The notes under the pieces are model-generated. The model searched no databases. It saw only the letters and a program-made list of their open reading frames with translations, and had not been told where the DNA came from. Shown here piece by piece: positions 1,150 to 23,194 of a stretch of 64,000 bases of DNA; within the stretch, counting starts at the first letter, position 1, and each line of letters opens with the position of its first letter. The DNA lies in assembly GCA_025642075.2 (NCBI GenBank), contig JAODUO010000159.1:80001-144000 (forward strand), given 5' to 3'. The stretch is from Ridgeia piscesae (Eukaryota > Annelida > Polychaeta > Sabellida > Siboglinidae). Position numbers and translations under genes: made by a program.

Positions 1150-1266
1150 GTGCATCTCAAGTCGCAGTTTATCATGAATGGGGTATCAGTGATTTGGCGA
1201 GGATGGATTGACCTCCAGCGATTGGATGGAGCTGGATGGTTGGAGTTTGACGAAGAAAGAGCACGG
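1150..1266 (+). CDS. CBFB: CBFB internal exon (conserved beta-domain core)
   Basis: 117 nt, 39 codons, phase 0 at both ends. The acceptor is TGTTTTAG|GTG and the donor CGG|GTAAGT at 1267. It encodes [19 protein letters not shown], then [20 protein letters not shown]. This aligns without gaps to the vertebrate segment around VYLKAPMILNGVCVIWKGW and probably corresponds to vertebrate exon 4. Confidence 0.96.
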
Positions 1267-4038
1267 GTAAGTGGCAGCCAATCACTGCTGGAAAATGTGT
1301 TCATGGAGAAATGTGGCAGTTAATGTTTTTGTATACAGGCTAATTATCTCGCAGAAATGTGTGCAAATGTGCCACAGAGAATGTGTGACCGTATTTATTT
1401 TGTATTAAGGAGTTGTAGTAATAAATATAACAAATCTGCAGTTTATATAAGATCCATCCGTAATTAATTTGCTTGTGGATATATTAGTAGGTTTATGTGG
1501 CAGTTACATCGCAAATAGGGCCAGTTTACTGTTGCCCTTTCTTGCCAATTTTTTGGTCGGTCAAAAATACTGTAATCGTTTATCCAGAAACTAACATAAA
1601 ATGTAAAGATCCCTAATATACTCTTTATTAATAAATGTTTTTCCATTTGTTTCTCAGGTGGAAGACCAGATCCTTCGGGAGCAGATCGAACAATACAACC
1701 GACACTTACATGGCATCGATGACCAGCAGCGCCACCTACAGGAGGAGCGCGAGCAGCGGGCGGAAGTCGAGGCTGAGGTAGCTGAAGCTTTGTTACACTT
1801 CTCTGGTAACATGCACAACAACAACAACTACCACAAGTGATGATGTCATCAGTACATGTGCACTTGTACCCAGTCCTCCCGCATGGGATGTTGTTGTGGC
1901 CCTCAAGCACACACCGTTGTCACGGCGATGGCGTCCATGTTGTTGCCGGGGGGTCTTTGGAGAATGACAGCGTTTCTTTGCATTTTGGCTGCGCTAGCGG
2001 TGACAAATTTGGTGGAAATGTTGGAGAATACTTGCTGTGGGTAAATCTGCCCAATCTTGAGCAGAAAGACCTGGGAATGTACGAAGAGCGGGAAAAAGCA
2101 GACATCAGCTGCAGATTGTTGAAATGGTTTCAATTGTTTGAAACAGTTTTGATAATTCATCCGGGGGAAAGATGTGAAAGCAGTATTTACCAAATCAATA
2201 ATTTTGGCATATTACATGAGATAATATTCAGTGCGAGACATGGGATTGCTGGAAGCAGTGCATTCTGGGATATGTGCATGGCTTGTTCTTGGTTCTTGAC
2301 TCCCTCTCCAACTCACCACTGTTTCCAGGCTTGCATGGTTTTCCAGTGTTCTCTTATTAATTCGGTGGTTTTGTTTGCATGGCTGCAAATTTAGCAACAA
2401 CCTGTAAACTCCAATGAAAATGTTCACATGTTGTGAATATTTCTGGATGTAAAATATTCTGGGATAAAATAAAAACAAATTAGATTGCTGCTTTAGTGAA
2501 CAGACATTTAGTGTAAAGTAGAGGATGTCTTAATCGACTGTGGCTGTACAGCTGTGAATTGTTGCAGACCTGAATACCAGGTATTTCACCTGGGAATGGA
2601 ATGGTTTTTGATCTATTAGATTGTGAAGTTTGACAGTGTTTTTTTCTTGCGAGAAAAACAAAGTCAAAAATATTTAATTTTCGTGCTTGTTGTAGTGGCA
2701 TTGATTGTGAAATGTTGTCTTGATGTGTACGATGTGTTGTCTGTTTGTGATGTCCGTGTGAGAAACAGAAATTGTATGCACTATAGCTTAGCATTTATTG
2801 CACATTTAGGAATGAATGGTTGATCGCTAGTATTTATGTATCTTGCCAAGATTTTTTGCAAAACTAATAATATGGCCAACATTGTATGAAAGTTAAAAAA
2901 GTAGGCGTTCATTACCTCTTGCTTTCCATCCCATCCGTGTGGAATAGTGTGTAATCTTCAATTTTGTTCTGCAAACATGTTTAAATTTCAAGTTTTTTCA
3001 GTGTGAAACGTATAGAATCATAGTTTACCAAATTCATGCAATTTATTTTAATTTTTGCCTGTAGTGTTTGGTTAGTGTTGTTCAAGTAATATTTGCGATA
3101 ATATATAAAATAGGAAGTTCAGTTGTATGACAATCAGTAAAGTAAGCGGAAATGATGTATAGCACTTTGGAAATTGATTGGTATCAGATCTCTTGCAATG
3201 TGAACTTTGACATTGTTTTACCTCTCAACCTATCATCAAAAGCGATCTCTAGCTAGATTACCGCAAATTTACTGGGAGGTAAAACAAAATCAAAAATACC
3301 TTAATGCGGTTGAACATGCAAAATGGTAAAATGAAACAATCTATTCAATCACATTTCAGGTCTCGACCACCTTAGCAGAAACTGCCATAACCACAAGTGG
3401 GTCGTGATGTTAACGCGCCTCTAATAACTACCATATAGAGTCTGTAGCACTGTTCGTTGGCAGTCTAAACTGAAACCGAAACCGAAACCAAACCCAAACC
3501 AAAGACACCGCTTCTTGTCTGGTATTGTTTTATGACATTTCTTGCCCTGGCAGGTCCAAGGAATCATCGTTAATGTTATTTTTATTTATTAAATTTTATC
3601 TATCAGTGGCAGAGCTATTGAGGTTGTTAACTAGGAAATTGTGAATCTTGTATTTTATCAAAGATATATGATGGTTATGAGTTATTGTCGGCGTTGAATA
3701 TACATTGTATACCCAGGTATACATTGTATGCACAATTGTGTCTTGTGTGCAATGAATACATTGTGTGTTGTGTAGACATAGTTGTGTGCACATATTTACA
3801 AATATACATTGTATACAAAGTGCATATGGTATACAATACAAAGTGTACATTGTATACAATACAAAATGTGCATTGTATAGATAAGTGTATAATGTATTCA
3901 CAAGTATATGTGGTATAAAAAGTATACATTGTATACACAAATATGAAATGTACACACTTAATGTATGCTTGTGTATACATGTGCATATGTGTATGCACTG
4001 CATACACATGTATACAAAACTATACATATTCATACAAG

Positions 4039-4131
<93 letters not shown>

Positions 4132-6269
4132 TATTATCGATACCATACGTATTATACATACAAGTATATTGTATATACATGTATACATGATATACACAAG
4201 TATACGTGGTACACACAAGAATGCATTATATACACACGCAGCAGTGGAGGTGTGCGTTAGAATCGCATACAAAAACCACGACTGGTGAGATTCAGTCTTC
4301 AACTGTGCAGCTCGGGCTTAAAACCAATGAAAACGCACACTTGTTCAAGGAATGTACTTTGCATATATGCAGCTTTATTAGATGTTTAGTGTTTATGAGG
4401 GTGAATGTGTTATTGTATTCAATGAGATCTCAGGGATTAAGCAAAAAATTAGCTGGTAATTTATTTTGTATTAAAGAATGAGCATTCACAAAGGGGTATT
4501 TTGTTTTATGATTGATTGATATATATATTATTGGGATGATTAATGTACTAAGTTTTCTGAAAAGAAATAGTATTAATATTTTCATAGTTTTATATGGGAT
4601 CATTTTGAATGAAGATTTTAAGGTAGTTTAAATTATTACAATTCATAAAAATTATGTTGGGTTAGTTAGGGTTGAAATAAAAACCAACATTTTTACATCT
4701 TGATTGTATTTATCAAGGGCTGGTTTGGAAAGAATTGCATTTATGAAGAGAAATTTGAGCAAAGAAATGTCAAGGCATTGTGTACGGTTTCTGTCTTCAT
4801 AGACAATATATATTAGAAGTTGAGGTCATTGAGCGGTAAATTGCCCTACAATGTTTTATATGAGCCATCTATCTTACAATTGTCCCCACGTCAGAATGCT
4901 TACCAAACGCCCCACGTTGTTTCCACGAAAACAAGGCACGCATCCACCAGTCCGAGAAAAGATCAATCCGCCCCACAAATGTCAGTTTCTTTGTGGTGTT
5001 TAATTTGTGATGTGGAATGCTCAGCCACATAAACGGGTGAATAAACTGAATCACCCGGCGGCTGAGATGTGTGCAGTTCACCGCTGAGTCTGATGTAAAG
5101 CGTTGCTGACCACAACCAAGTCTGCAGTTTATCGCTTCTTAGAAACACTGCAGATAATTGAGTCAGAGAACTGTGGAGGCAATTAGAATCTTCATTGCTG
5201 AGGGGGGCCAGCTGGTCAAGGGGGTCCATAGTCTCTGGGTGTACTCAATGACTTTGCTATTAATCAAATTTGTGACATGTTGTTGGGCAACCATTTTTAG
5301 AAAGTCCTGCTAATTTCAGTACTAGACTGTTAGTGCGTGGGGGCATATGACTGCATTCAAGTTGATTGGCATTGGCTTGAAACTGTGAGTGTTGTGGTGG
5401 TAAAAACATATTTTGTTATCGCTTAGTATCAAATGTATGAACAATCGTTGAACTGCATAAATTGCTATATTACAATTGTGGAAATGACCTCGGCACAAAT
5501 CCAAAGAAATTTTTTTTATACAGTTTTGTATAACATTGATGTGTAATGTTAGGCAGATACTGCTGTCTGATATTAATTAATAAGTATTACTAAATTCAAT
5601 GTTAACAATGGCCACTTTAGGTGACATAATAATTGATTAAACCAGCATGCATATTTATTTACTATTTTCATGAATAAATTGGGATTGCTTAAGTGAAAAA
5701 TCTTTCTTGGAAGGTGCATATAGAAACCAGTTATTCCAGAAGGGCGGGAGGCAGGGGACTATGTTTTACACGTTTGTTAAGGTCATTTAGGCAAAACGTG
5801 AATGTTTTTCTGCGTGAGGTTGTTTGTCTATGTAGGTGCAGCGTATTCAGTGTCAGTCATAGTGGGTTAGTTTTTCCAGTCGGTGCTCATTCCATAGAAT
5901 AGCCACTCCCACTCTTGTCTCGTACTCATACTTCAACTTCTAGCTGCTTACGAGGTATTGCCTAATAGTTTCTTAGTCACGGAGTAAGGCAGGCTTTGTT
6001 TGCCCACCCCATCAGTGACAGTTAGCGGTAACAGTGAAACTGCTCAATTGTGCCATGCACTGAGTGGTATAGATGGGCTTAGCCATAACCTTTTTACGAT
6101 GTTGCGTAATTCTATTCTGTATTGTGGTTTTTCTTAAAGTCAACTGTGGTTTTCTGTCTTGAAAGTTCATTTCAAACTCAGCTTTGTTTGTAGCAGCAAC
6201 AAGCTTAGACAATCAACCTCTTGTCAAACAATATGGAGAAATAGCTATACATAGCATGTGTCGTCCCCT

Positions 6270-6305
<36 letters not shown>

Positions 6306-9300
6306 CTTATTTAGTTAATCGCCAGCATTTTCCTCATAACCCCTGCACTCATAGATCATCTGTTTTCAAGCAACATTTTGTTCCTAAGGTTAAGCTGAAT
6401 ATTGGCAAACGTGGTCTGGAATCAACTTCCTATTGCTATAAAACCACCTGAAATAATACAAATTTTTCTCAAAGAATTTAAGTTATTTTTGTTTGAAATT
6501 GCATTCCCACACAAAACATTCAGAGTTCCTATGCTTCGGTGATGACGCACTGTCTTCATTCACGATTTTTGCTGAATGATTTTGCTCAAATTCCTGAGGA
6601 TAATCACGCTGTAGACATTTTTATATATACCTATGTATAATATATTTATGCGTGCATGCAAAGCAGTTCATACTTACTGTATGTAAGAGAGAGATGTAAT
6701 TGAGCAGTGTATAAGGAACAAATATTTAAAGTGTTCTGTGTAGAGGTAATAGAGTGTGTTATTGTCTGGAACAGGTATTATTTTTATCGAAAATCCGCTC
6801 TGCAAGTTGTTTTCGTTGTCTTGTTATGACTAAGCCGTCCAAACTACTCAAACCCACAAACCTCACCACTTGTGTTCAATCGCTGGTTGTGTGGTTGTGT
6901 GTTATGTGAAGTAGAAGACATAGCATGAATGCCTTCGTAGTCGAGCAGGCATTTACTGCGTACATCTAATATGTGACATCACTGAGTTTATCATACATGT
7001 TTTTAGACTGGATTTGTGACAAATTAGTATCAACAGTACTGCCTGTTCATTTGTGCAGATGTTATGTAGTTTTGGGTCAATCATTGGGGGGGAATCTTTA
7101 TTAGAACCATATTACAAAAACTATTAATTCCAATAGAAACAATTAATGAAACATTAATAATAGTATAAATAAAACTAAATTTTTAAGGACTGAATCAGCT
7201 GAGAAGGTTGTTATTGTTAGATAAGTTATGAAGCTGTTATTATTTGGTACAGTGGTATGCAAATATTTATTACCATGGTATTTCTTTAATATAATTTTTT
7301 ATTGTGTAATATTTAATACATTTGTCACGAGAAACCAAAGTCAGTATTGAACCTGTTTGCCAGTTTTCTGGTTGCTGCGTGGGAATATTGAATATCTGAC
7401 TGTATTTAATGATATAGCTAATTATGTACATGTGTAGCTATTGTTTGTTCGTGAATTCATTTCAATACTTAGCGATATATAGTTGGTCGGTTTGTTGAAT
7501 TAATATGCTGCATATATTGACTGAATGTAGCATCTTATTTCATGTCAGATATTCAAACTCAAGAAATGTGTTGTTGAGTGGTGAAGTTAGATAATGATAG
7601 AGAGTGCATGTGTTGTCGTACCTACAAATGGGTAGTCAGTGGTTTTACTTACTTATCTAGCTATAGGTGTCCTGTGAAATTGTTGACTTGTATATCAACA
7701 GGTAGTCTGCGAATTTGTTGACTTATCTATTTATAGGTAGTCGGTGAATTTGTTGATTTGTTTAACCACAGAACACCATTGAATGTGTTGACTTGCTTAT
7801 CTGCAGATAGTCACTGAATCTGCAAGTCTACAATGTTGTATTGCGAATGCGTTGGTTTGTTTAAGTGTACTTCTATGTGACCATACTTTTGTTGGTTATA
7901 ATTCATTCCGATGGGAAGGTATTTATGTAAAATAGCATCTTGTTTGTGTACACAAAAATGCACAATGTATAACTGGCAACTGGTAAATATTAAATTTATT
8001 TTCGACAGTATTCTGACAGTTTGGTTTTTTACTGAATAGATCCGTGGTGTGGAATCATTGTGTAGGCCGTTACCAGGGCTGCAGTACAACTCTCACTTTT
8101 GGGATAACGCCCTCCTGTGCTTCACCCTTCTGTGCTCTTATTCACCCTGCTTCCTGTGCCACTCATACCACGTACACCCCTGCACACACTGCCCTTCTTA
8201 TCTACCCCATCTTTGACTCATGTTTTATCCAAATACAACTACCTCATTCATTCGTCAGTCAATGAACCACAGACGACTCACGTACTTACTCATCAAACAG
8301 TTCACTTACACACTTAACCATCAACCTGTCCACCTGTGCACTTTACTCCCAATCAGTCTACACACACACTTATCATCAACCCTTCCATCCACCCACTTAA
8401 CGATCAACTGTTCCACTCACTTATCAACATTCCACCTACCTGAGTCACATTTACCCATCAACCAGTCAACCTACACACTAACTCACCAATCATTCCAACT
8501 ACACACTTAACCGTCAGCCATGCCATCTACACACTTAACCGTCAACCATTCCACCTACACACTTAACCGTCAGCCATGCATCTACATATTCCACCTATAC
8601 AGTTACCCATCAACCAGTCTGACATAGACATTTAACCATCAACTATTTCAACCCTCATTTACCTCCCCAAACATTTACCAGTCAAACATTCCACACGCAC
8701 ATTTAATCATCAACACATAGATTTACCCATCAACCGGTCCGACTACACACTTATCCATAAATGCACATATCCAACTGCATACAAACCATTTCACTTACCT
8801 ATCAACACACCTGTATACTTTCACATTAACCCAGCCCACACACACTGAACTTATCCACCCACATCCACCCATCCACCTGCACAGTAAATCAGATACCCAC
8901 ATACACTGACTGTATTCCACATGCCAACATCTACACTTAACTTTCAACCTATAGACACACCTACGTGAACATCATATTTTCTGTGTGCAGATCCGCAACT
9001 ACAGTTTAGCACTGCTTCGTTGTGTTTTATTTTCTCTTAATTCTCGGAACAGATTCGCAAATATGTACTGCTTTCTTTAAAAAAAAGGTATTTCCAAATG
9101 AATCTAAATTAACGACGTTTGTGAAGCAGTCTAATTTTACAAACAATGTAAACGGACAGTTTCCGGTTGCGCTGATACATCGGTGTTGACTGTTTCTTTT
9201 CATCGAGTTCGAACCTCTTATTTAAAGGAACGTTTAAATCCGGCAAAAATAAAAGAATGAGAAGAAGTGAAAAGAGAAAAGAAACAAAGACTGGATGAGT

Positions 9301-12300
9301 TGGGGATGAAGATGGGTGACAGACAGTTCCAGGCAGAAGCTGGCAATGAGCTGGATAGAAGGATGGACATGTGAAGTGAATGGAGGAGGATTGGTTGATG
9401 AAGAGAGCGGATGATGAGAGAGCAGGAAGAGCAGGAAGAGAAGGCCTCAACTGAGTGGGGAGGAGACAGGATTTGGTGGGATTGAAACAGGTGTAGTAGA
9501 AGAAGAACACGAGGTGGGAAGTGGAGATGGAGTAGGTGACTGTGTTGGATTGGGGAAAGGAGAAGGAAAGCGACATGAAGGATAAGTCTTGTCTTGTCTT
9601 GTCTTGTCTTGTCTTGTCTTGTCTTGTCTTGTCTTGTCTTGTCTTGTCTTGTCTTGTCTTGTCTTGTCTTGTCTTGTCTTGTCTTGTCTTGTCTTGTCTT
9701 GTCTTGTCTTGTCTTGTCTTGTCTTGTCTTGTCTTGTCTTGTCTTGAAGCCAACCACACCTGCCCCCAGACACAAAGAAGACAACAGTCAATAATGTCCT
9801 GCGTGTATCCCTCTCTACTCATTGTTTATTGGCTCATTTAAAAATGGCAAAATACACAGGCAGGTGTAAGAGTAAACTTAATGCACACAGTGCTGGTCAG
9901 TGATGTTCACAGAAGGTTGTATGAATAAGTTTAGTCACGGTGGTGTGGTGGTATGATGTTGGTCTAAAAGTAGAGAGCTGTGTACCAGTAGGTACTTAAG
10001 ATGGGGACAGACGGTTGTTTCATTTTCATATGGAAAGTATACAGAGTTTTTGGTGGTGTGGGTGGGTGAGTGGGTGGTGATGTGGGCGGATAGTGTGAAT
10101 GGATAGTGGTGTGTGGGTGGATGGTGGTGTGTGGGTGAGTGTTGGTGGATAGATGGGTGTGTGGGTGGATGGTTGCATGTAGGTGGATGGTTGTGAGTGT
10201 TGGTGGGTGGATGGGTGTGTGTGGGAGGGTGGTGGTGTGTGGGTGGTGGTGTGTGGGTGGATGGTGGTGGGTGGATGGTGGTGTGTACCCGGGTGGATGA
10301 TGGTGTGTAGATGGGTGGGTTGTTGGTGATGTGGGTGGGTGGATGGTGGTGTGGGTGAATATGTGGGCGGATGGTGGTGTAGGTGAATGTGTGGGCATAT
10401 GGTGGTGTAGGTGGGTGGTGTGAGTGGGTAGGTGATGGTGTGGACGAATGTTGATATGGGTGTGTATGGTTTGATGGCTGTGTGAGTGAGTGGATGGGTG
10501 GGTGGGTGGGTGGGTGGTAGATGGAGGTGTTGGTGGGTACCAGTATGGATGGATGGTGATGTAGGTGGGTGGTGGCATGAGTTCGTGGGTGGGTGTATGG
10601 TGGTGTGGGTGGGTGGGTTGTATTAAGGATGAATGAATCCCTAGAGTAGCACCACCTGTTGTGTGGCACAGATACTAGTGCTCATTTATGCTGTTGCTAT
10701 CAGAACTGGCCAGTGTCGGGGGCAGTGTTTGATAACCAGGTCACACCAGTTGATTGAAGTAGTTATTGGTTGTAGTAAGGAAACCCATTTGGGTTGTTCA
10801 TTGTCTCAAGCAAACCACATATCGGTGGGATGTTTCATGAGGGTTTCAGCCAATGAGAAATACTGACAATATTGACTGCGAACATGTGAGATGACCACAT
10901 GGTTTAGAGACAGCACTGTGGGTTATTTGTGGAATACTAGGCGGGCAGCTTTAGTGTCAGGCCTTTGCTGTATGCGGCAACCCATTTAACAGACATTGGC
11001 CTCAACTCAACAGACATTGAGACTGTAGCAGAAACTTTGTTCACAATAAGAAAACATTGCTGTATAAACAGTCTCATTTTTTAAGTTCTTCAAATATCAA
11101 ACCTCAATGCAGCCTCTGCACTTCATTGGTTCTGTTGATGTGAACAAGGTTCTGTGAAGGAATGTATTCACAACGCTGTGTGAACACCTGACGGTTTAAG
11201 CTGTATACGTCTGCAGCTGGTTAAATAAATGTGTATACTTTTGGTGACGTCATTGACAAAACAGATTGAGCATTATAATGGATAATCTGCAGAAGAGTAA
11301 ATAGCTTGGTGTAATAATGTTATTTAAGTACACACTCAGGCAGGCAGTGTAAGGAGAGCTTCAAATAGCAACCTTTATCTGTTTTTTTAAAAGTTTTGAT
11401 TTGATTAAGCATAAATTAAATTACTGGTTTATCCAGTGATTTAATGAAAACTAAATAACAGCTTTGTACACTTGGCTGGCGGATACAAACTAGCTCATTT
11501 TTTTCTTCTTCAGAAGATGGTCCTCAAACGAGGAGAAATTCAAACTGCAAAGCAACTGTAAAGACAGTCTGTGTTTGAGTTGCCTTCTGTGTTGCCATGA
11601 ATGCATGTCATGTGTTGTCACTAGCCACTCACTGCTCTGTCTTTGTAGCTTGTCAAGTTGAACTGTTCCTCAGGCTTGTCGCCGTTGTCACTGGTAAGGA
11701 ACTCAGAATGTCCTACGGTGTTGTCTGTTTTCACCCCAGTGCTGTCCATTTCCCCTTCCTGCTTGTCCTTGTTGTTACGTTTGACCTTGAACTTTGGCTG
11801 TTGTCACCAAAATGAATAATCCTACTGGTGGAAATAATTGTGACTGTTTTGTATCTATCCTTGTCTTTCTTGTTCTTCCTTGTCCTGAATCACCTTTAAT
11901 CTCAGGGTGTTTGTGTGATATCCCTTGGTCTGACTCGTGGCTTTCACCCCTCTACAAGCCACCTCTTCCCCTGCGATCTTTCCTACTCCCAACTCGTTCA
12001 GAAGGAATGTAAAGGGAAGTAGCTATTGTAGGTCTGAACCTGTCAGTTATCCCTTCCTTTTGAGAACTACCTTAAAACCATTTTCCCATCTTGTTCGTGT
12101 CTTCCTCATCTCACCTTTATCCATGCCCTCATTGTTGCCTGTTCCCTGTACAAGTCCTGCCTATCTTACTATTTGCTTCCAACAACTCCCTTTTCCAGTG
12201 CTTCTTCAATCCAATATCTTCTTTGTCTCTATATTGTTGTTGCCATTTTCGGCAGTGAAGATTAGTGATCCTACGTATGTTGTTGTCCCTAATGGTGATG

Positions 12301-15300
12301 TGGGCATGTCTTGATTTTGTTGTTGTTATTCTTCTTGTTGGTGTCTCCTTTTTCAGGTGTTGTTGTGGTTTTATACGTCGGTCACTGAGCATTGGTTCAG
12401 TACACCTAGCACAAAGATGGATGTCATTGGGGCCGTCCCCTCACAGGACTGGGCTAGTTTTCTGTCTCTTTCATTGTCCCTCATCCACAATAATTCAATA
12501 GTTTGCTATTGTCACAAGCTGTCATCCTGAACTGACATTGACACTTTCATGCAGCCTGTTCAGCAGTACTCACAAGAGTGATGGTTCACTTGGTGACCAC
12601 TAGGTGGCAGTGCTATCATAGTCTGTGGAAAGTTCAAAATTACCAATGAACCATGGTCTGTGGTCACACCTATATATACCAACCAAACCTTGTGATTATA
12701 GTTACCATAGAACAGTTCAAACTTAATTTTGGAGAAAAATGTAAGACGTTAGTTTCATTAATGTAGTTACCATGTTGTTAAGTAAGAGAGAACAAATGTG
12801 ATCAAATATGCTTGCTGGGAAGCCAAGATCACCGGCTGACAAAAACAATGCAAAATGTCATGTCTGGAAAGAATATATTATACAATAATATTTACTGTGT
12901 AATTCTAATTCTTATGATGAATCTGTCTGTATATTCAACACAAACTTATTTGACGATATCGGGTTATGGAATTTATTTAAGGGCATACAATGTCATCTTC
13001 TCCACCCAGCAGTGTTTGATTGACGTGGATGTTCATATTTCGCAAACATCTGTACATCCGTAACAACAACATGCTTAAATATCAGCCAGGAACATTTGGC
13101 CACTTGTCGGGACGGACGGACGGACGTGGGGCATGAGATGTTATCCAGTTGTCATATTAACACCATCTCAGATGTCTTCGGCAGCATCTGTCTCCTCTCC
13201 ACCAGCTGCTCTCTTCAGGTCTGTGTCACCAGGTGTCACAGGAAATGTTTGACCACCAAAACTTCAGCTGGATTAACACAGACAATTGGAACTAGTGTTG
13301 TGAAATCCCACACCAGATCAGTTTCAAAGGAGGTTTTCTGCATTTCCTGTTGTTTGTTCTCACAATAGTGAAACATTTCATCGTCTCTTCTTTGAAGTGA
13401 TCCTAGTTTAACTTTTTTGACATATTATGACTTGCTCAATTATGCAAAATCAAAAACGTAAAGTCTTTAATTTTATTCAGACAATATGTAGCACATTCAA
13501 GCAGAAATTTAGTATGGATGTGATTTTATTTTCGGAAAAAGTACTGCTAGCCTAGAACTTTACTGGTGCAGAACTTAATAAATCAGATTCAAATCCAGCA
13601 ATAACTACTTTGTCATAGCCAGAACACTGACTTAGGAATTTTAGCAAAGTGAAAAAAATTATGACTGAAAAAACACACTTTGCAATGTATTGGTGCTTGT
13701 TAGTTGAGAATAGAATTTCTAATACACACAAATGAAAAATTTCTAAAATAACACATACAAAATATGTTTATATATGTTGATTAAAAACTATCTTAAAAAT
13801 ATGTACATACTGCAAAACAAATCTTTAAGAGGTGTTTTATTTTCTTTGCCAAAGATGTAATGTAAGCTCGGAATCCGTATGCTGCTAGTTCAGCATAGTT
13901 CCTTGAATGGAGACAGGAAATCTGTGTAGTTGAAGCTTATCTGCAGCAGTAGCTGTAAAAGACTTGGCTGGTTAGCCTGGCAGATGGCTGTCTTATCTGT
14001 ATAGCTGCTCACTGGGCTGCAGTATATGTTTATTTAATTGAGCGGGTAATTAACTGAGTGGAAACTGTCAGGTGTCTGATAGCAGGGGATAAGGAAGATG
14101 TTGAGGGTGATTAGAGCTTGTTTAGTCCCCCACAGGGCACGTATTGCTTTTTATTCAGATTCTTGGTACAGATTCTTGGTGCCACTTTCTTCTGGGTGGG
14201 TGCCACTGGGTGGCGTAATGAAAATGCATAATTTCGCTGACAGTCGTGAACAGTTTTTATAGTTCTATTTTGGTGATGAAATGGAAAAAATTACCTGCTA
14301 ATTAAAAAGGTTATTTGGTAATTGTTTGAGTTTAGTGAATGACAAATTTACATTTGTTTCACTTTGTGATTGTCTTATTTCGTTTGGATGTTTTAAAATG
14401 CATTGGTGAATTCTTGTATGTTTTCATGAAAAGAACTATAACAATGCATCAAACTTTTGATGATTTTTTATTGTATAGATGCATAATTAGTGTGAACATG
14501 GATTATTACTGATAGTAAAGTTAACCAACAGTAGTGCAAACTTGTGTATGTAAAGTGTAAACTGAATACGTTAAACCATGCATTCTTCAGTGCATAGTCA
14601 CTTTGAAGATAGAATATTGTTTGTAGTCAATTAAACTGTCAGTAGTTATAATTGATAATTCACTGAATTACCAACAGTAATGATAGCTTGGTAAAACAAA
14701 TCAGCTACTACATTGCTGCGCCAACAGTAATAACAATACATTAATAAGAATACAGTAATAACAATACATTAAAAAGTAATAACAATACAGTAATAACAAT
14801 ACAGTAATTAGAACCGTTCTGTTGCACCTGTTCCTTGAACAACTAGTTCAGAGGAGCATCGAGGCAAAATGGCTGATCAATCTTAGTCAGTAAATATTTC
14901 AGTTGTCAACAGATGGATTAATATGACAGGGAGTTGACTGCCAACTCATGGATGTGTTCATGTTTGTGTTTACATCTCTGCGTTTCACGCACTCACTAAA
15001 CAATATAACATAATAATAGTAAACTTCTATAATAGTAAACTTCTATAATAGTAAACTTCTATAATAGTAAACTTCTATAATAGTAAACTTCTATAATGTC
15101 TCAGTCCTGAGCTCAGAAGTGAACAGACAGTAATCATTAGGTTAAATCATAAATTGAGACAGGCAAGGGTTGTCATTGTAGTGTGGTTTAGGTGGGAAAA
15201 CAGTTTCAAACAAATAAGTTTAATTTTGTGTGTGAAAGTTGACTATAGTTTCAGTTAATTTTAAAAATGATAGGGAGTTGGTTCCAGATTTTGGGAGTAG

Positions 15301-18300
15301 CTTCAAAGAAACTGTGTATACCAGTGTTGGAATAAAATGTTGTTGGAAAACAAATGATCTGAAGGTCCTGGAGAGATATACCGTTCTGGGGATATACCGT
15401 TCTGGGGATAGCAGGAAAAAACGGGAGTCTAACTGAATAAACCATTATTTCCCCTCTGCTTTCACACAATCATGCACGTTGTGAAGTCCAACAGCACGTT
15501 TGACTTGCTTAGCACATTTTCATAAACAAGATATTTGATTACCCATACGACAGTGTGATGAATGACCCCGTCTCTTTGGAGACTCATCGGAGACTCATTC
15601 ACAGAGCTCAACGGTCAATCTTGTGGTCAGAACAATCGTCCCTGCTTCCTGTTTTTTCCCCTCAACCCCTCTCAAGTACTTAGTGGTTTAGTGCGCTCTG
15701 CCCCAGTCAATGGAGCAGGAACAGGTTGAAAGGCCTCGTTGCATTCCTAAAGTTTTGTGGTCGGCGCTACGCATCCCTCTTGGGTGGCAGCGCAGCCGGC
15801 TGGCCAGAGCAGGATTCATCCCTCCTCTGACAATATAATTAGCAGGCGACAACGTGTGTGAACTGATGGGGCAGGGCATTGATGTTTCTGTCCCGGTCTG
15901 GTATTATATGGAGACGGTTGGCCGAGGGTTCGGCCTTCATCTGCCCGCACTCACAGATGCCTGCAATGTTTGTGGTCAGGAGACAGGCTGGGAGGGAGCC
16001 CCTCTCCCAGTTGGCGACAGTCAATGAGAAGGCACTCAAAGGACCCCACCACATAAGTGACATCTTCAGAATTGACAGTCGCATAAACTGGCGATGCCCA
16101 TCCCCGGATGACATTCAATTTACCCCGGTATGTGGCACTGATGTGTGAGAATGCCCCCCAAGAGGCAGTCGTCATGGCGATGGCGGTTTTTTATGCAAAA
16201 TTTGTTTTCCTGTTGATTTATTTATAGTGCCATGTTGGTGTGAGAAGGTGCAAGAATGACTACTTTTATCGAGATATGCAACGTAAATGGTCATTTCTTG
16301 ACTCCTTCTGCATTAATGTTTGGGGTGAGGTTTACGACCTCTATAATCACTCCTACGTCTGCCTGTGGGCGGCTTTCGTGCCTACATCTACTTTGTCCAA
16401 CTCTCATGAATGGGAATAGATCTTTATTTTATTTCTCGTGCCATGGTACACATATATGAGTGATATTTATACCTTTTATATATGTTAACTTCCATTGTCC
16501 AAAAATAAGAAGCTTTGAATAGAAATATGGATATATTTGAGTGTATACTAATCAGAGGTTTAACTTTGTTGACAGTTTGACACAAGTTAAAGATGGAAGG
16601 ATCCCTCATACAAAGCATTCACTTGTAAACCCAGAACTGCAATAATGACCCGTCCCTAGGCAGATTCACATTAGTCACTAGGCAGATTCACATTGCAAGT
16701 TTGCTTCTCTTTTTGTAGTTGAGCTGAGGGGGCGAGTTAACTAAATGACTGTTCTTGAAAAAGACAACGTTTCTTTTTAGGCAGGATGCGTGGGTGAATG
16801 TGTCTGTGTGTCTATCTCTGTGTGGGTGCACACATTGTGGAATCTGTGATTGTGTGCATGTTCACATGTGCAGATTGTTCTTTGTACCACAATTCCGAGT
16901 TTCTCTTTTTACACTTTGTCATCTAGTGAAGCTTCGAGATTGATGACGTGAAACCATTTTTATAGTTTTCCAAGAAAGAACTTAATAAGCAGTGTGTGAC
17001 GATAGAGCATGACGTATCTTGTAATCCGTGCATTGGTATCTATAAATCACAACTAGACTGGTTTGCTTGTAATAAGTAAATTTTTATTGTTATGACATGT
17101 GCTATTTAGATTAATTTGAACAGAGCAGTGCAGTTACTTATGTAAGCTGACTCTTGTTATTTGCACACAGTGTTACCCTTTCATTGAAATATCTGTTGCA
17201 ATCTTAGAGGGTTTACACACCCCATGTGTGATGTGCCCCCCCCCCAGGCTAAGGGATCACCTCAGGACTTGTAATGAATATGACAATTTGTTCTCATATT
17301 TTTTAGATGACTGTCACGATTAATCTTAAGCTACCCGGTGATATAATCTCGGATCCCATCAAGAGAAAGTCTTTTATATTTATTCCTGTTTTTCTATTTG
17401 CATTCTAAGTTTATTTTATGTAGCGTCAAAGAGCCAGTTATCAGACAGTATCATCTATTGTCTAAATAATTATAATAAAATATACATGAAAAAGTGAAAC
17501 CAACAATTTTCCAGCTTGGCATCACGTCTTTAATTCTACATTTTTATGCCGTCACCTGGCAAATAATATTGGCATTGTGGTGATGCACTAACTCATTGAT
17601 AACTGGTACATTTATCCTTTTTTCCTTAGTACCATGTAAATTAATCATGTTGTAGCTGTTAGTCACAGCCTGCTGCACTCCACAATGACAGTCGCTTTGC
17701 AACGGGGTGTAGAACGAGTGGCGCGATATTATTGGCTGATTGCATTTATTAGTTATGTTTATCTGGCTCCTATCACACGTCTCTGTTGGCCTCAGTGTGT
17801 AGGTAGCTGGTGGGAGGTTGGGGGCCAGGGGGGTCAAGTGATAATCTGAGGAAATGAACCCTGGCTCCCACAGCCATTTGATAGTATGTGCCTTAAGCAA
17901 TTCCAGGAAATACCACCAGGTAGCCGTGAAATTGACTTAGTCATGACACTGAGTTCAGTTTGCTACTAGGCCAAAATGTTTCCGTTGAAGCTAAATAGGT
18001 CAGGACATAGTTCATTGTCTCTGTATTAATGATAGTTTCACACTCTTTTCTTAACTTTATATTCATGTTAGCTGATAATAGTTTCCATTCGTTCGATATT
18101 ACAACAAAATAAGTATTAATGTGCGATGCAATGTTAACTGTTTTGTGGAATTTAATGGGATATGACAGAATTGTAGCATGCAATAATGTATAATTTGTTA
18201 AAATGTATTTTTAATTGTGTAACCTGTTTAGTAAGTATTACTGTAACATGAGTGCATAGACATCAAACATTTTGAGTTTAAAAACATAAACATCTAATTT

Positions 18301-21300
18301 TGGTAAATTTCAAAATATTCGTAATTACAGTTTTTTAATCACATCTGGGTTGTTGGTAGGTTCTGGGTGGGCTCTTAAATATGGAAATGTTTATAACGCA
18401 GCCAGTTACTTGGTAATAAACTGTCTTCTATTACCTGGGGGGGGGTACTATTTGAATACCAGTTTTATATTTCATAGTGGTACCATTACTGTAACTTAAT
18501 CACAGGTGTCAATTTAAGGTTTCATGTTAGCTTGGTTTCAACATCTGTGTCGGACGTTGTCAACAATCGCTGTTTGTCATGCTGAAATATTTCGACAAGC
18601 ACCCTCCCCTTTCTCCCAACTCGAAATCACTTCTCCCATTATTCTGCCCACAACCTTTTGATCCCGCAGATGTTCTGGACAATATAGTGACATATTGCGG
18701 GGAGATAGGGAAGTATCATCCTTGCCACATGAGACAGTGCGATGCCATCCTGTGCATGGTGGTTCAGATTGGGTGTCTGTGGTCATCTGGGTCATAGCGT
18801 AGTTGCCAGAGCCAGTTCTCTTTTTCCTTGCGATCAGATTTCAGTATTGTAATCCAACGCGGTTCCCGTTTTTACCATGCAGGTTCTTTTTCGTCGAAGA
18901 TAGAAACAGGTGATATTCAATCAAGCGTGACTGTTCACGCTTGACCGCATAAGGACAGGGATTTGCTTCTGGGGCAGTCTACCTAATATGGCTACTCGGA
19001 TTATTGAAGCAGTTTGAAGGACTGCACATGATTTAGAAGGAGAAGAATTCTTGAACAATATTTGCATTTGTTTATTTTGTTATTAGTTCGGATATTCATA
19101 AATAGCAGCTTAGTACAGTGCTTGTGTTTGTGTACAAGTGTACTTTTGAAATAATAATTTTAAAGATATTTTCATATTTAATTTTAATCATCACATATGT
19201 CAACATACATCTGCTGATGCATTCGTTGAAACATGTCTTGGTCTGTTAATACGTTGCCAGTATAATATAGTATGTTCTGGTATTATAATTCTGGTATGAT
19301 TCATAATGGAAAGCATTAGCAAATAACTACGTCAATTAAATACAAATTTTTTTCACATTTTAGCAAGAACATTTTTACTCGTCCCTATGGACACAAATAT
19401 TTCATATGTGTTTGGATACTTTTATGTACTCCAATAATTTATACTAGCAACAATCTAGGGCAATATGGAGTTGTCACAAATTGTTTGCCACCAATAAACT
19501 GCGTAGTTCAATTCTGTTGTTGGTCACCAAAGCTTCCAGATCCAATGTTCCGAAATGGCTTCATGCTCAGAGAGCCACCTACTGGCAAATGATTGGTTGA
19601 AATGCAGACTGCGCAGTAAGTCCCCCCAGTAACGAAGTAAATACCGGAGATCCAGAAATACCACAAGAGCCCCCTGCGAATCTCATTCTGGGTTGTATTT
19701 TAGGAAATTGTTGACTATTTGAAGGACGTGTTTTTTTACAAACGACATCGGAGGAGACAAGCGTATCCCATGCTCGGTGTAGCCACCGGTATTGGGTGGT
19801 GCGGGTTTTGCTTCACCCTGTAATTGCTTTGAGTCGGCGTAGGAAATGATTGGGGCAGGTAAATGGGTCAAAATAACATGTTGCCAGGCAAGCGAGAACC
19901 ACTTTGAAGGACAATCGCAATGCCAGATGCCGTCTTTGTGCTCGTACGCACCAGCAGTTGCCCAAATGAACATTTGTTGCGCAAAAAAGTTTTCTCGTAT
20001 TACTTAGGCCGTAACCGTGACTGCAAACTTGATTCAGAATCTAATTTGGGATCTCCACGGCCAGACCTTGTGTGTCTTCTCAAAGGTGCAGATGTAATTC
20101 TGCTAAACAAAATTGTTTGTTGAACTTAATTAAAGTTGCGATTTCTGTTGGCTCTTGTTGTCATATATACTGTAATCATTTACCGTTCATTACAGTTGTG
20201 TAATGTTACTAACATCAGCACTGCATTTCATAGACTTGGGTATTGCTTCCAGCATTCTGACTTTTGGGTACTACCTCGGCACTAGGCACTAGGCACTATG
20301 CACTGGCCATTATTGTTTGATTTTTACAAATGGCTGTATATTGCTGCCTTAGCTTGGTGTCATTTACACTGCCTGTTGCTCTTCCTATACGTCTGTTTTC
20401 TAAGTGTATTCAAATTGTATACCGCACGGCTTTAAACTAGGCCGGTTGTTTGTAGCACAGACGTCAACTGTTTTGTTTCCAATCTCGTCATTTGACAGTC
20501 GTCCAACAGATTCTACCCAATTTAGTCATTACAACCGACGCGGTGGGGTGGTGCACTGGCCAAGCGGCATTTAGCTGATTTACCAGCCACTAGCTTTTGT
20601 AGGGTTGATTAAATTACACTATTCCGAGGGACGCATTATCTGTGATTCCTTTCAAAGAATCGCTGTCAAAGCATCTGTGTCACGTGAAATTTAATCACCC
20701 GTTAGTTGTGTGGATGTCCGGTACATTGCCCCCCAGTTCACTTTTTGCGTATTATCTTTGAGGGGCGCAAAGTTTAACCCTCTCTGCACCATTTCCGTAT
20801 ACTGGTATATCTATATAATATACAAAAGCCTAATAAATATCATAATATAATAATATATAGTATATTATACTATAATATTTATTATATTGCATTTGTACTG
20901 TACTGTACTGTACTGTACTGTACTGTACTGTACTGTACTGTACTGTACTGTACTGTACTGTACTGTACTGTACTGTACTGTACTGTACTGTACTGTACTT
21001 ATACTATACTATACTATTATATATACACAATATTATGAAGTGTTTTACATTTTTATTATTAGACACAGATTTATCATCACCATATGTGATTTTATTGATA
21101 AAATACATTTATCCATTATATGAGGATTAGCACTTTTAAATGTATTACTGGGTTGTAAAAGAGTAGATTGTTTAAGAATTTTCCGTACTTGTGCCGTCAC
21201 ATTTTCTCACTGTGTCTTTTAATATTTCATACTTACTTTTCTGAGGCATGTGCCACATAGCTAAGTAAATAATAATGATTGAATTCATGATGAAAGCATA

Positions 21301-22219
21301 TAAAATATATATATATCCTGCACATATGCATAATATTTAATTAATGATGCTATTATATTAGGCATAGAAAATAAAAATACTAATAAAATAATCAAAATAA
21401 GTAACAGCAGTTCATGAAAATAAATATAAAAAAGTGCTAACAGCTGTGATCAGGTCAAAGGTCAGCAGAAATGAACTAAAAGCTGATTGCTATCTTAGCT
21501 TCCTACATTAGCACAGATGACATTTTAACAGCAACACGTTACAACGCAATTATCACGTCTTCATTATTTGCAATTCAAACTGTCCACGCCTCGTTGTTTA
21601 GCCTAATAGCTGCTATGTGTTGTTCGCCTCCCACAGTGTTTCCTGTGCGCTCTTTTGAATTGTTCCCGGTATCCTTGTATCTTCACAAAGCCGCGTAATC
21701 TCGGTAACCTTGATGGCAGATAGTCTGTAGCAAATTGAATGGTGTAGATAGAGCAGGAAGACCCATGGAACGTGACTGCCTCCAGTTGTCAGGGTAGTCG
21801 CCAGCCGGGCCCTTGTTACTTCACTCACAGATCACAAGTGGTGATACGGGGAGGGCTTCGTGTAGGGTCACTTGTGTAACATAGGTTAGCATAGGTCACA
21901 GCGCTTTTTTCAGTTTTTTTAATTAAAAAATAGAGTTTTATTCCAGATAAATATCTGGCAGCCCAAAGTAGATGTGTGATTCGATAGATGCGGGGTTATA
22001 GAATATACCCAGTGTCCGACCCTATAGTCATAGTTCAGTCAGTTGAATCAACAAATAATGATAACAAATGGTGTAATATTGCCTCAAGTATGTTGCTGAG
22101 TAGTGTACATAGTGGCTGAATACTTTCCAGGGTTGTTACAGTAGAATGCCTGGATATAATGTGTTAAACTGATGTTTGCATTATGAAATACTACTGATTG
22201 ATTGCCATTACTACTACTG

Positions 22220-22317
<98 letters not shown>

Positions 22318-22318
22318 G

Positions 22319-22407
<89 letters not shown>

Positions 22408-22558
22408 AGCTGTGATCTGACATGTGCTCATTCAAGCTGTGCTGTCACCAGTGACCTTTGTGATGATATACTCATTTAGTCACTCTTTTCTCTTGTTGTA
22501 GTCACGGAGATTCTATGCCGAAGGCAGCCCCAGCATCTCAAGTGGCAGCAGTGAATGA
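1150..22558 (+). CDS. CBFB: Core-binding factor subunit beta (CBFB), 3' part of the gene
   Basis: CBFB binds the Runt domain of RUNX transcription factors. It does not contact DNA itself but raises RUNX affinity for DNA and stabilises the protein in the nucleus. Three exons are visible: 1150-1266, 1658-1777 and 22502-22558. The first encodes the most conserved stretch, including [18 protein letters not shown] and LEFDEERAR, nearly identical to vertebrate CBFB. The second encodes the charged helical tail ([19 protein letters not shown] onward). The last encodes [18 protein letters not shown] and a stop. All junctions are GT-AG and phase 0. About 97 C-terminal residues are here; the N-terminal portion is outside the window. 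The last intron is about 20.7 kb. A second donor 28 nt into the intron at 1806 allows another C-terminus. Identification is very secure; the distant last exon is well supported by its resemblance to the mammalian RRQQDPSPGS end. Confidence 0.93.
1658..1777 (+). CDS. CBFB: CBFB internal exon (charged C-terminal helix)
   Basis: 120 nt, 40 codons, phase 0. The acceptor TTTGTTTCTCAG ends at 1657 and the donor GAG|GTAGCT starts at 1778. The product is highly charged ([18 protein letters not shown], then [13 protein letters not shown]), as in the vertebrate exon that encodes the arginine/glutamate-rich helix. Reading through the donor stays open for 20 more codons ([10 protein letters not shown]... 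then TGA at 1838-1840). Its first ten codons resemble the mammalian read-through VRVSQLLAVTG. Confidence 0.92.
1778..1805 (+). CDS. CBFB: CBFB alternative exon extension to a second donor
   Basis: 28 nt between the first donor (GAG|GTAGCT) and a second donor (TCTG|GTAACA at 1806). Inclusion adds VAEALLHFS plus one base. That base switches the last exon into another frame, reading [17 protein letters not shown] and ending at a TGA inside the same exon. As I recall, mammalian CBFB uses two donors 31 nt apart (also 1 modulo 3) to produce its two long isoforms. The extension is inferred from sequence alone. Confidence 0.5.
1778..2490 (+). other. CBFB: Possible alternative CBFB 3' end (retained intron and intronic poly(A) site)
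   Basis: If the donor at 1778 is ignored, the frame runs to TGA at 1838-1840. Downstream there is an AATAAA at 2468-2473 followed by T-rich sequence. The stretch is less AT-rich than its flanks and carries no repeats, so a terminal exon with its own 3' UTR is possible. No transcript evidence is available. The longer open frames seen here on both strands look like chance frames. Confidence 0.3.
2491..3689 (+). other. CBFB last intron, first segment
   Basis: AT-rich intronic sequence without a recognisable gene. A short (GAAACC)-type run lies at about 3468-3503. Nothing else stands out. Confidence 0.6.
3690..4240. repeat. TATACA-rich palindromic low-complexity block with (TA)n core
   Basis: Dozens of degenerate copies of GTATACATTGTATAC-like motifs flank a pure (TA)n run at 4048-4128, about 40 units. 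GTATAC and TGTATACA are self-complementary, so either strand can fold extensively. Open frames full of Tyr, Ile, Cys and Val on both strands come only from this repeat. Confidence 0.9.
4241..6271 (+). other. CBFB intron, no gene recognised
   Basis: Unique intronic sequence. The stretch at about 4800-5230 is richer in G and C than its surroundings and could be a regulatory island, but I see no specific motif to support that. Confidence 0.5.
6272..6304. repeat. (TA)n microsatellite
   Basis: Uninterrupted TA dinucleotides, about 16 units, just upstream of a LINE fragment. Confidence 0.95.
6334..6505 (+). pseudogene. Non-LTR retrotransposon ORF2 C-terminal remnant
   Basis: After one frameshift the + strand reads [20 protein letters not shown], then [20 protein letters not shown] and [10 protein letters not shown]. 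The WNxLP core followed by a basic helix ending in a KxFLF-like motif is the typical end of reverse-transcriptase ORFs of LINE clades such as CR1, Rex and Jockey. Only about 55 residues remain and the frame is broken, so this is a dead fragment. AT-rich sequence at about 6600-6660 may be its 3' tail. Confidence 0.6.
6506..7630 (+). other. CBFB intron, no gene recognised
   Basis: AT-rich intronic sequence with no coding signal, repeat array or RNA gene that I can identify. Confidence 0.5.
7631..7870. repeat. Diverged 35-bp minisatellite
   Basis: Units start at 7631, 7666, 7701, 7736, 7771 and 7806, exactly 35 bp apart, with a weaker seventh copy. The shared core is GGTAGTCNGTGAATTTGTTG followed by ACTTATCTAT-like sequence. 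Copies have diverged by substitution but kept their length. Confidence 0.7.
8220..8960. repeat. Degenerate minisatellite with CACTTAACCATCAACC-type units
   Basis: Tandem units of about 28 bp built on ACACACTTAACCGTCAACCA and CCACCT. They are well conserved at about 8490-8580 and degenerate outward. The + strand is rich in A and C. Open frames here with repeated HT, LT and STHL residues are artefacts of the repeat. Confidence 0.75.
9586..9746. repeat. (TCTTG)n pentanucleotide microsatellite
   Basis: 161 bp of perfect TCTTG repeat, about 32 units, with no interruption. All frames on both strands are open through it (SCLVL-type or KTRQD-type repeats), which produces several spurious ORFs. Its purity suggests recent expansion or high instability. 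Confidence 0.97.
10045..10625. repeat. TGG/GGTGGA-rich low-complexity tract
   Basis: About 580 bp of degenerate GTGGGTGGATGGTGGTGT-type units with strong strand asymmetry: G and T on the + strand, C and A on the -. Runs such as TGGGTGGGTGGGTGGG near 10497-10516 could form G-quadruplexes. The long - strand frames rich in H, P and T are repeat artefacts. Confidence 0.85.
10870..14700 (+). other. CBFB intron, no gene recognised
   Basis: Long intronic stretch. About 11600-12500 is rich in TTGTC/CCTTGT motifs and pyrimidines and may be an old, decayed simple repeat. Open frames of 60-125 residues have no recognisable domains and no flanking splice sites that I can support. Confidence 0.5.
14730..14812. 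repeat. AACAATACAGTAAT-type tandem repeat
   Basis: Imperfect tandem copies of CAGTAATAACAATACA with small indels. Only a few units are present. Confidence 0.7.
15013..15096. repeat. 16-bp tandem repeat ATAATAGTAAACTTCT, 5 copies
   Basis: Five essentially identical 16-bp units follow one another, then a partial copy. The low divergence indicates a recent origin. Confidence 0.92.
15251..15469 (-). pseudogene. Non-LTR retrotransposon ORF2 C-terminal remnant
   Basis: The - strand frame contains [20 protein letters not shown], then [20 protein letters not shown] and a stop. This matches the pattern of LINE reverse-transcriptase ends, in which an r-F-x-x-AxPxxWNxLP block follows a variable spacer. 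The frame is intact for about 70 residues, but no upstream RT domain is present, so it is a truncated insertion inside the CBFB intron. Confidence 0.6.
15550..16180. other. GC-richer island in CBFB intron, function unknown
   Basis: This block stands out from the AT-rich intron. Three overlapping open frames of 74-91 residues occur on both strands, none recognisable. I see no good acceptor and donor pair in frame. Candidates are an enhancer, an unrecognised mobile-element fragment or a noncoding exon. Confidence 0.3.
16200..20890 (+). other. CBFB intron, no gene recognised
   Basis: Mostly AT-rich intronic sequence with a few GC-richer patches (about 17700-17900, 18550-18950, 19500-20100 and 20500-20770). 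No family is recognisable in any frame. Confidence 0.5.
20894..20999. repeat. (TGTAC)n pentanucleotide microsatellite
   Basis: About 21 perfect TGTAC units, followed by a short TATAC-type run to about 21016. The GTAC core is self-complementary, so a palindromic tetramer recurs every 5 bp. Confidence 0.97.
21017..22207 (+). other. CBFB intron, no gene recognised
   Basis: Unique AT-rich intronic sequence with no feature that I can support. Confidence 0.5.
22208..22407. repeat. (ACT)n trinucleotide microsatellite
   Basis: About 200 bp of ACT repeat with three small interruptions (TGCTAC near 22218, TTCTAC near 22260, TGACTAC near 22317). It ends about 95 bp before the CBFB terminal exon. Poly-Thr, poly-Leu, poly-Tyr, poly-Ser and poly-Val frames here are artefacts. 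Confidence 0.97.
22502..22558 (+). CDS. CBFB: CBFB terminal coding exon
   Basis: The acceptor is CTCTTGTTGTAG at 22490-22501. In phase 0 it encodes [18 protein letters not shown] and TGA at 22556-22558. The RR...SPS...SG pattern resembles the mammalian ARRQQDPSPGS end. When joined to the alternative donor at 1806, the same exon is read in another frame as [17 protein letters not shown], ending at a TGA at 22552-22554. The 20.7-kb separation is the main uncertainty. Confidence 0.75.
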   Translation, partial: SRRFYAEGSPSISSGSSE

Positions 22559-23144
22559 CTAAACCGGTAGCTATAGCAACCACTCGTCACCATGGCGACG
22601 CGAGTGATGGAACGACATGTCGAATGTACATAGTGTAACGCAGAAGACGTTGGTGCGTTAGGACATTGGATAAAAGCAGATAATTTATTTTTCTAAGCGC
22701 TGAGAACATTTAATGTTTTGTGACGAAAACGATGATTGCACATGTGCAAGCATGCTTGTGGCATGCACGCACGAATTCTAATGTTGATTCTTGTTGATCT
22801 AGTCATGTGGGGCGTGTCTAGGATTAGACGTAAGACTGAATTGGTGATTGCTATGACACGTTTAAGTCACTGTTTCTGTTTCACACCGAAACAGGAGGTG
22901 TGATTGAAAACAATTGTTTGTTCCCGTGAATGCATGTTTGTTTACTTGTTTACATCCGGTATGTTTAAATGAGTAGTTTATGATACTTGGAAAGTTTATT
23001 TCAGAAGTGTTTTATGCTCTTGCTCTCTGTCTCTCTGTCTCTGTCTCTGTCTCTGTCTCTGTCTCTGTCTCTTCTCTTTCTCTTTCTCTTTCTCTTCTCT
23101 TCTCTTCTCTTTCTCTTCTCTTCTCTTCCTCTTTCTCTTTCTCT

Positions 23145-23194
<50 letters not shown>

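Follow-up and report, generated by a model that had tools for sequence, protein, structure and literature searches.

The window analysed here is a stretch of 64,000 nucleotides, positions 80001-144000 of contig C159 in the 628-Mb assembly of the tubeworm Ridgeia piscesae. The first 22.6 kb of the window contain the 3' part of a CBFB gene, with its last three coding exons. CBFB is the partner of the RUNX transcription factors. A preliminary description of this DNA had named the gene as CBFB, and this is borne out by protein matches: the joined exons 1150-1266 and 1658-1777 match the Pfam family CBF_beta (PF02312) with an E-value of 9.2e-26 and 90.9 bits (cut-off 25), and human CBFB chains in the PDB match the same joined exons with an E-value of 5e-20. 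The nearest proteins are vestimentiferan: that of Ridgeia piscesae is 100% identical across 84% of the query region, and that of Lamellibrachia satsuma 98% identical across 77%. Further CBFB exons are found upstream of the window at C159:63760-63840 (MPRVVPDQRDKFENDELFRKLSRETE...) and C159:63990-64079. Exon 3 was not seen upstream of the window, where C159:75001-80000 consists of N. The features of the CBFB gene in the window are:

1150..1266, plus strand: CBFB coding exon; acceptor TTTTAG, donor GTAAGT at 1267
1658..1777, plus strand: penultimate coding exon, short form, 40 codons; preceded by TTTCTCAG, last codon GAG
1778..1805, plus strand: 28-nt extension, retained with donor 2; VAEALLHFS plus one base, the peptide being conserved in annelids and molluscs
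1806..1811, plus strand: putative donor 2, G|GTAACA; as strong as donor 1 by matrix score
1838..1840, plus strand: TGA stop that would be reached on intron retention; matches the end of the Ridgeia piscesae protein record
22502..22558, plus strand: last coding exon, open in two reading frames; preceded by TTTTCTCTTGTTGTAG, stops at 22556-22558 and 22552-22554

The last coding exon is flanked by simple repeats, with a TAC array at about 22210-22405 just upstream and CT-rich arrays at about 23030-23190 just after it. Other long simple repeats or minisatellites are found at about 9530-9800 and 43300-43850; the arrays include one that reads as KTRQD repeats and a second repeat that codes for units of a longer peptide. 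On the minus strand at 31880-32736 two adjacent frames match the katanin con80 domain, one with an E-value of 1.4e-6, above the Pfam cut-off, and one with 8e-4, below it. These frames are perhaps exons of a katanin p80-type gene. Rfam has no match to the window at gathering scores.

The penultimate exon has two candidate donors, GAG|GTAGCT at 1778 (donor 1) and CTG|GTAACA at 1806 (donor 2). The spacing of 28 nt is 1 modulo 3, so the second donor shifts the reading frame by one. The last exon, about 20.7 kb downstream of the donor pair, is open in both frames, with stops four bases apart: 22556-22558 in frame 0, which was translated, and 22552-22554 in the shifted frame, which was read from the sequence. 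The preliminary description had placed the donors at these positions, had proposed that a single last exon is read in two frames with these two stops, and had given two C-termini, the second with VAEALLHFS added. On the sequence each of these points is confirmed, and both products translate as written there. With the two stops inside the last coding exon, nonsense-mediated decay is not expected for either mRNA, provided that no further intron follows.

The two donors have almost the same strength. With a mammalian donor matrix, applied here to tubeworm DNA, donor 1 scores 4.95 and donor 2 scores 4.94, and these are the top two GTs within 1700-1960. By themselves the two donors are not beyond chance expectation, because scores of this height are reached by about 6% of the window's 4329 GTs.

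Splicing from donor 1 gives a frame-0 C-terminus that is found widely in CBFB. The short ends of six other species were compared with every stop-free place in the window, 49,985 over the two strands; position 22502 gave the best match with a score of 38.0, and the runner-up, a poly-serine repeat, scored 25.8. The match of the last exon is beyond chance within the window. An end of the frame-0 type is present in 46 of 262 fetched proteins (48 pattern matches, with P0134 and P0142 judged false). They include chiton (ARRRGTEQSPSETSGSSE), Owenia, hemichordates (ARRQTHEPSPSGTSSSND), scorpion (ARKKQAELSPDRSGSASN), horseshoe crabs and spiders, as well as lamprey, sharks, fishes and mammals (ARRQQDPSPGSNLGGGDDLKLR). 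Since this widespread end requires donor 1, the comparison of protein ends indicates that donor 1 is used.

The read-through peptide VAEALLHFS was traced by the pattern V[VAI][QE]x[LIV]L. It occurs near the C-terminus of 12 of the 262 fetched proteins and, by visual inspection, follows directly on exon 5 in all of them. The named carriers are the annelids Ridgeia and Paralvinella, the bivalves Sinanodonta and Pecten, and the gastropods Plakobranchus and Elysia; the others are unnamed or transcript records (P0126, P0148, P0172, P0173, P0184 and P0194). The Ridgeia record (P0123) is identical to the window over its last 99 residues and is not independent evidence. P0126 is a transcript record whose start resembles an unspliced intron, so it may be pre-mRNA. 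P0148, P0172, P0173, P0184 and P0194 are consistent with spliced mRNA, because each is a complete protein encoded on a contig of only 1002-2723 bases. The mollusc and annelid proteins from Sinanodonta (P0127), Pecten (P0171), Plakobranchus (P0183), Elysia (P0223) and Paralvinella (P0125) share V[VA][QE]xLLx[FIL][STA] after exon 5; their tails beyond the peptide differ from that of the tubeworm, and as protein records they are compatible with either donor 2 or intron retention.

The strength of this conservation was measured with a leave-one-out score over ten distinct peptides (P0184 duplicates P0172, P0223 duplicates P0183, and P0123 is the window itself), against a null set of 5011 stop-free ten-codon peptides that begin at a GT in the window. 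None of the 5011 null peptides reaches the score for nine of the ten sequences, the window's own included, and one does so for Paralvinella. The read-through peptide is therefore very probably translated, being conserved in annelids, bivalves and gastropods. The same result bears on the idea that donor 2 is a cryptic GT which is never used, with an open frame and a peptide that are accidental. High-scoring GTs are frequent in the window, as noted above, and open stretches of 28 nt are common, but the peptide's conservation across the three groups, at a score that none of the null peptides reaches, makes this idea highly improbable.

The proteins searched are representatives of 90% clusters, which may conceal a species' second isoform, and they come from the best 120 of 471 matches, the best 120 of 1344 and one complete list of 47. 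Absences from them are provisional for this reason. Among the matches listed, the representatives from oyster, pearl oyster, Lingula, nemerteans, cephalopods, chiton, limpet and abalone have other ends only. One pearl-oyster protein (P0174) carries the name "CBF-beta isoform 2", so isoforms had been named in molluscs earlier; its end, EAEGGF, is of another kind.

A translated peptide could also arise by intron retention or intronic polyadenylation. The peptide would then be the start of a retained intron, translation would stop at 1838-1840 and the last exon would be read in one frame. The Ridgeia protein record continues into the intron and ends exactly at the intronic stop, as this explanation predicts. 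In Sinanodonta and two unnamed clusters the proteins end in SEERKS tails, which are hard to derive from a shifted last exon of the RR type and are more easily read as intron read-through. Against this, conservation among annelids and molluscs ends at about codon 10, which is the site of donor 2, and the stretch onward to the intronic stop is not conserved; a donor of the quality of donor 1 sits where conservation ends. The Plakobranchus protein, moreover, runs on after the peptide as ...SISQPQHLQQF and has the 5-mer QPQHL in common with the shifted last exon of the window. Of 20000 double shuffles, 1 produced a shared 5-mer of this type; the Elysia protein has no such word in common with the window. 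On balance retention is an unlikely source of the peptide, and splicing from donor 2 is the preferred reading.

Back-translation is a weak pointer to a shifted last exon in the sea slugs. In Plakobranchus it puts the frame-0 SPS motif at the same spot as the shared 5-mer, and 70 of 1000 shuffles equal it. For the window, used as a control, the figure is 9 of 1000. For Elysia 691 of 1000 shuffles are as good, and the other shift scores higher (21.3 vs 16.8). With a longer motif, the shuffle counts are 1 of 300 for Plakobranchus, 199 of 300 for Elysia and 89 of 300 for the window, whose own tail the longer motif does not fit, so that it fails as a control. Use of the last exon in a second frame is thus suggested by Plakobranchus, with Elysia negative. 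The tails of P0194, P0148 and P0173 had also been considered as shifted exons of the RR type; these were dropped, as many tripeptides permit such a junction and the junction was picked post hoc. GTAAG donors deduced from RKS in Sinanodonta and GKH in Pecten are plausible and unprovable from protein, and they were left uncounted.

Taken together, vestimentiferan CBFB probably has a pair of competing 5' splice sites, separated by 28 nt and joined to one last coding exon, with splicing from donor 2 in the tubeworm inferred from the comparisons above. The conservation of the read-through peptide in annelids, bivalves and gastropods makes the event older than Ridgeia piscesae, and it most likely dates at least to the annelid-mollusc ancestor. 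A claim that overlapping C-termini are an ancient feature of CBFB therefore stands as far as an age beyond the species is concerned; its other part, a single inheritance with mammals, fares less well and is taken up below.

Other CBFB proteins have alternative C-termini of different kinds. Ray-finned fish CBFB has ends of the type TTAGPQPWLKHGQR and DPVVSKIWD, the first of which, judging from the protein, is apparently the last exon in another frame. These differ from the tubeworm in that they have no LL peptide and the other sequence starts right after the E of exon 5. A second donor is unlikely for this reason, and the fish end is likely to arise through an alternative acceptor or exon. The TTAGPQPWLKHGQR type is found in P0070, P0071, P0072, P0075, P0076 and P0077, perhaps through a shifted acceptor. 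Caecilian (P0095) and falcon (P0029) CBFB end in GKKTRP and GKKTARP respectively, which is the last exon in its shifted frame; the sequence ahead of it is different. An additional molluscan end resembling PWKPxLYIL is present in P0132, P0134, P0141, P0176 and P0179, from Haliotis, Solemya, Mercenaria and Mactra, and Patella has a similar one. This type of end has no credible match in the window (tblastn, E 1). In tblastn searches with the fetched proteins the exons at 1-2 kb were recovered, and the remaining matches were weak (best E 0.027) and taken as chance; no other CBFB last exon or tail was found in the window by this search, which short tails can escape. Paralvinella palmiformis has two differing CBFB-like proteins (P0125 and P0146), so some annelids may carry a second gene copy.

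The two-donor arrangement suggests how the tail of tubeworm CBFB could be varied. Donors 1 and 2 would compete, both joining the distant last exon. Donor 1 would give the widespread CBFB tail with Ser-Pro and further serines, a plausible target for phosphorylation. Donor 2 would give the hydrophobic stub VAEALLHFS, followed by a Gln/basic tail in place of the Ser-Pro tail. The RUNX-binding domain would be identical in both forms, so the choice of donor would tune the tail, with effects on protein stability, on phosphorylation or on cofactors, and would leave RUNX binding as such unchanged. Alternative donors that shift the frame are often young or noisy. Here a central partner of RUNX seems to have preserved a dual-frame C-terminus since the annelid-mollusc split. 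In the available parts of the open-licence literature, including PMC1395345, PMC9657020, PMC10449822, PMC3316577, PMC2527000 and PMC5453546, no report of a two-donor CBFB event outside mammals was found.

In mammals the existence of two donors, which the preliminary description had mentioned, is confirmed by the literature and by the human 182-aa chain. In mouse, exon 5 has an internal donor and another at its 3' end; each is joined to exon 6, giving the forms Cbfb1 and Cbfb2 (PMC9657020, PMC10449822). Cbfb2 mRNA is about three times as abundant as Cbfb1, and donor mutants exist for each form (PMC9657020). Ossification is delayed when Cbfb2 is lost but not when Cbfb1 is; without Cbfb2 the Cbfb level falls to about a quarter of normal, and CBFB1 is reported to be more potent in DNA binding with RUNX2 (PMC9657020). 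By analogy with the mouse, the tubeworm tails may tune the level or potency of the protein. Control of the splicing of Cbfb1 and Cbfb2 has been called poorly understood (PMC10449822). The same choice in a worm could allow the role of the tails to be asked apart from vertebrate bone and blood, alongside the mouse donor mutants (PMC9657020).

The mammalian and tubeworm genes share the main elements of the event, with two donors in exon 5, one acceptor and a last exon open in two frames (PMC9657020, PMC10449822, PMC3316577). The human and mouse forms are 187 and 182 aa long, with isoforms numbered two ways within the paper describing them (PMC3316577). In both mammals and tubeworm the short-form tail begins [A/S]RR and has a Ser-Pro, and the long form has V...LL... 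ahead of the shift. The human 182-aa chain ends VRVSQLLAVTGKKTTRP, from which a mammalian spacing of 10 codons plus one base, or 31 nt, is deduced, compared with 28 nt in the tubeworm. The peptides differ (VRVSQLLAVT against VAEALLHFS), and the shifted mammalian tail KKTTRP is unrelated to that of the tubeworm.

One account of these likenesses is that the bilaterian ancestor already had the two-donor, two-frame end, which mammals or amniotes and spiralians kept and many lineages between lost. The same exon is involved, with the first donor in phase 0 and the second in phase 1 in both cases. It had also been claimed that VRVSQLLAVTG aligns with the tubeworm peptide. This holds when one residue is gapped, where the LL-hydrophobic-S/T core of VRVSQLLAVT aligns with the annelid-mollusc set (p 0.0056), but not without the gap (p 0.56); the first V is largely set by a GT donor in that phase, and the last G by a G|GT donor. 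The bird read-through aligns somewhat better (gapped p 0.0028), but the parrot variant gives p 0.034 and an in-frame insert in cyprinids (P0038 from Cirrhinus, P0101 from Cyprinus) gives p 0.15. For ten other read-throughs (carp, sucker, salmon, moray, elephantfish, Xenopus, shark, acorn worm, centipede and spider) the scores are in the range of random peptides, with gapped null fractions from 0.29 to 0.99, and that of a brittle star is too short to score.

The distribution of the amniote peptide also speaks against inheritance from a common ancestor. VR[VAG]SQL[LI] is found in 45 clusters among the best 120 of 471, of which 37 are amniote and 8 unnamed. It is missing from all 47 named clusters of fishes, sharks, amphibians and cyclostomes (45 of them among the best 120 of 471, 2 in the complete list), some of which are fragments or have other ends and so are unable to show the peptide. 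Neither the amniote nor the spiralian peptide is seen in the hemichordate, echinoderm, chelicerate, myriapod and insect proteins fetched, among the matches listed. The sea urchin CBFB gene has four introns at vertebrate positions, the last intron not being specified among them, and that of Drosophila has none (PMC1395345). Descent of the mammalian and spiralian ends from one bilaterian ancestor is therefore doubtful; if true, it would make this a rare and very old dual-frame splice choice. The mammalian event resembles that of the tubeworm in its donors, its acceptor and its two frames; a common origin is at present disfavoured, and the two possibly arose independently.
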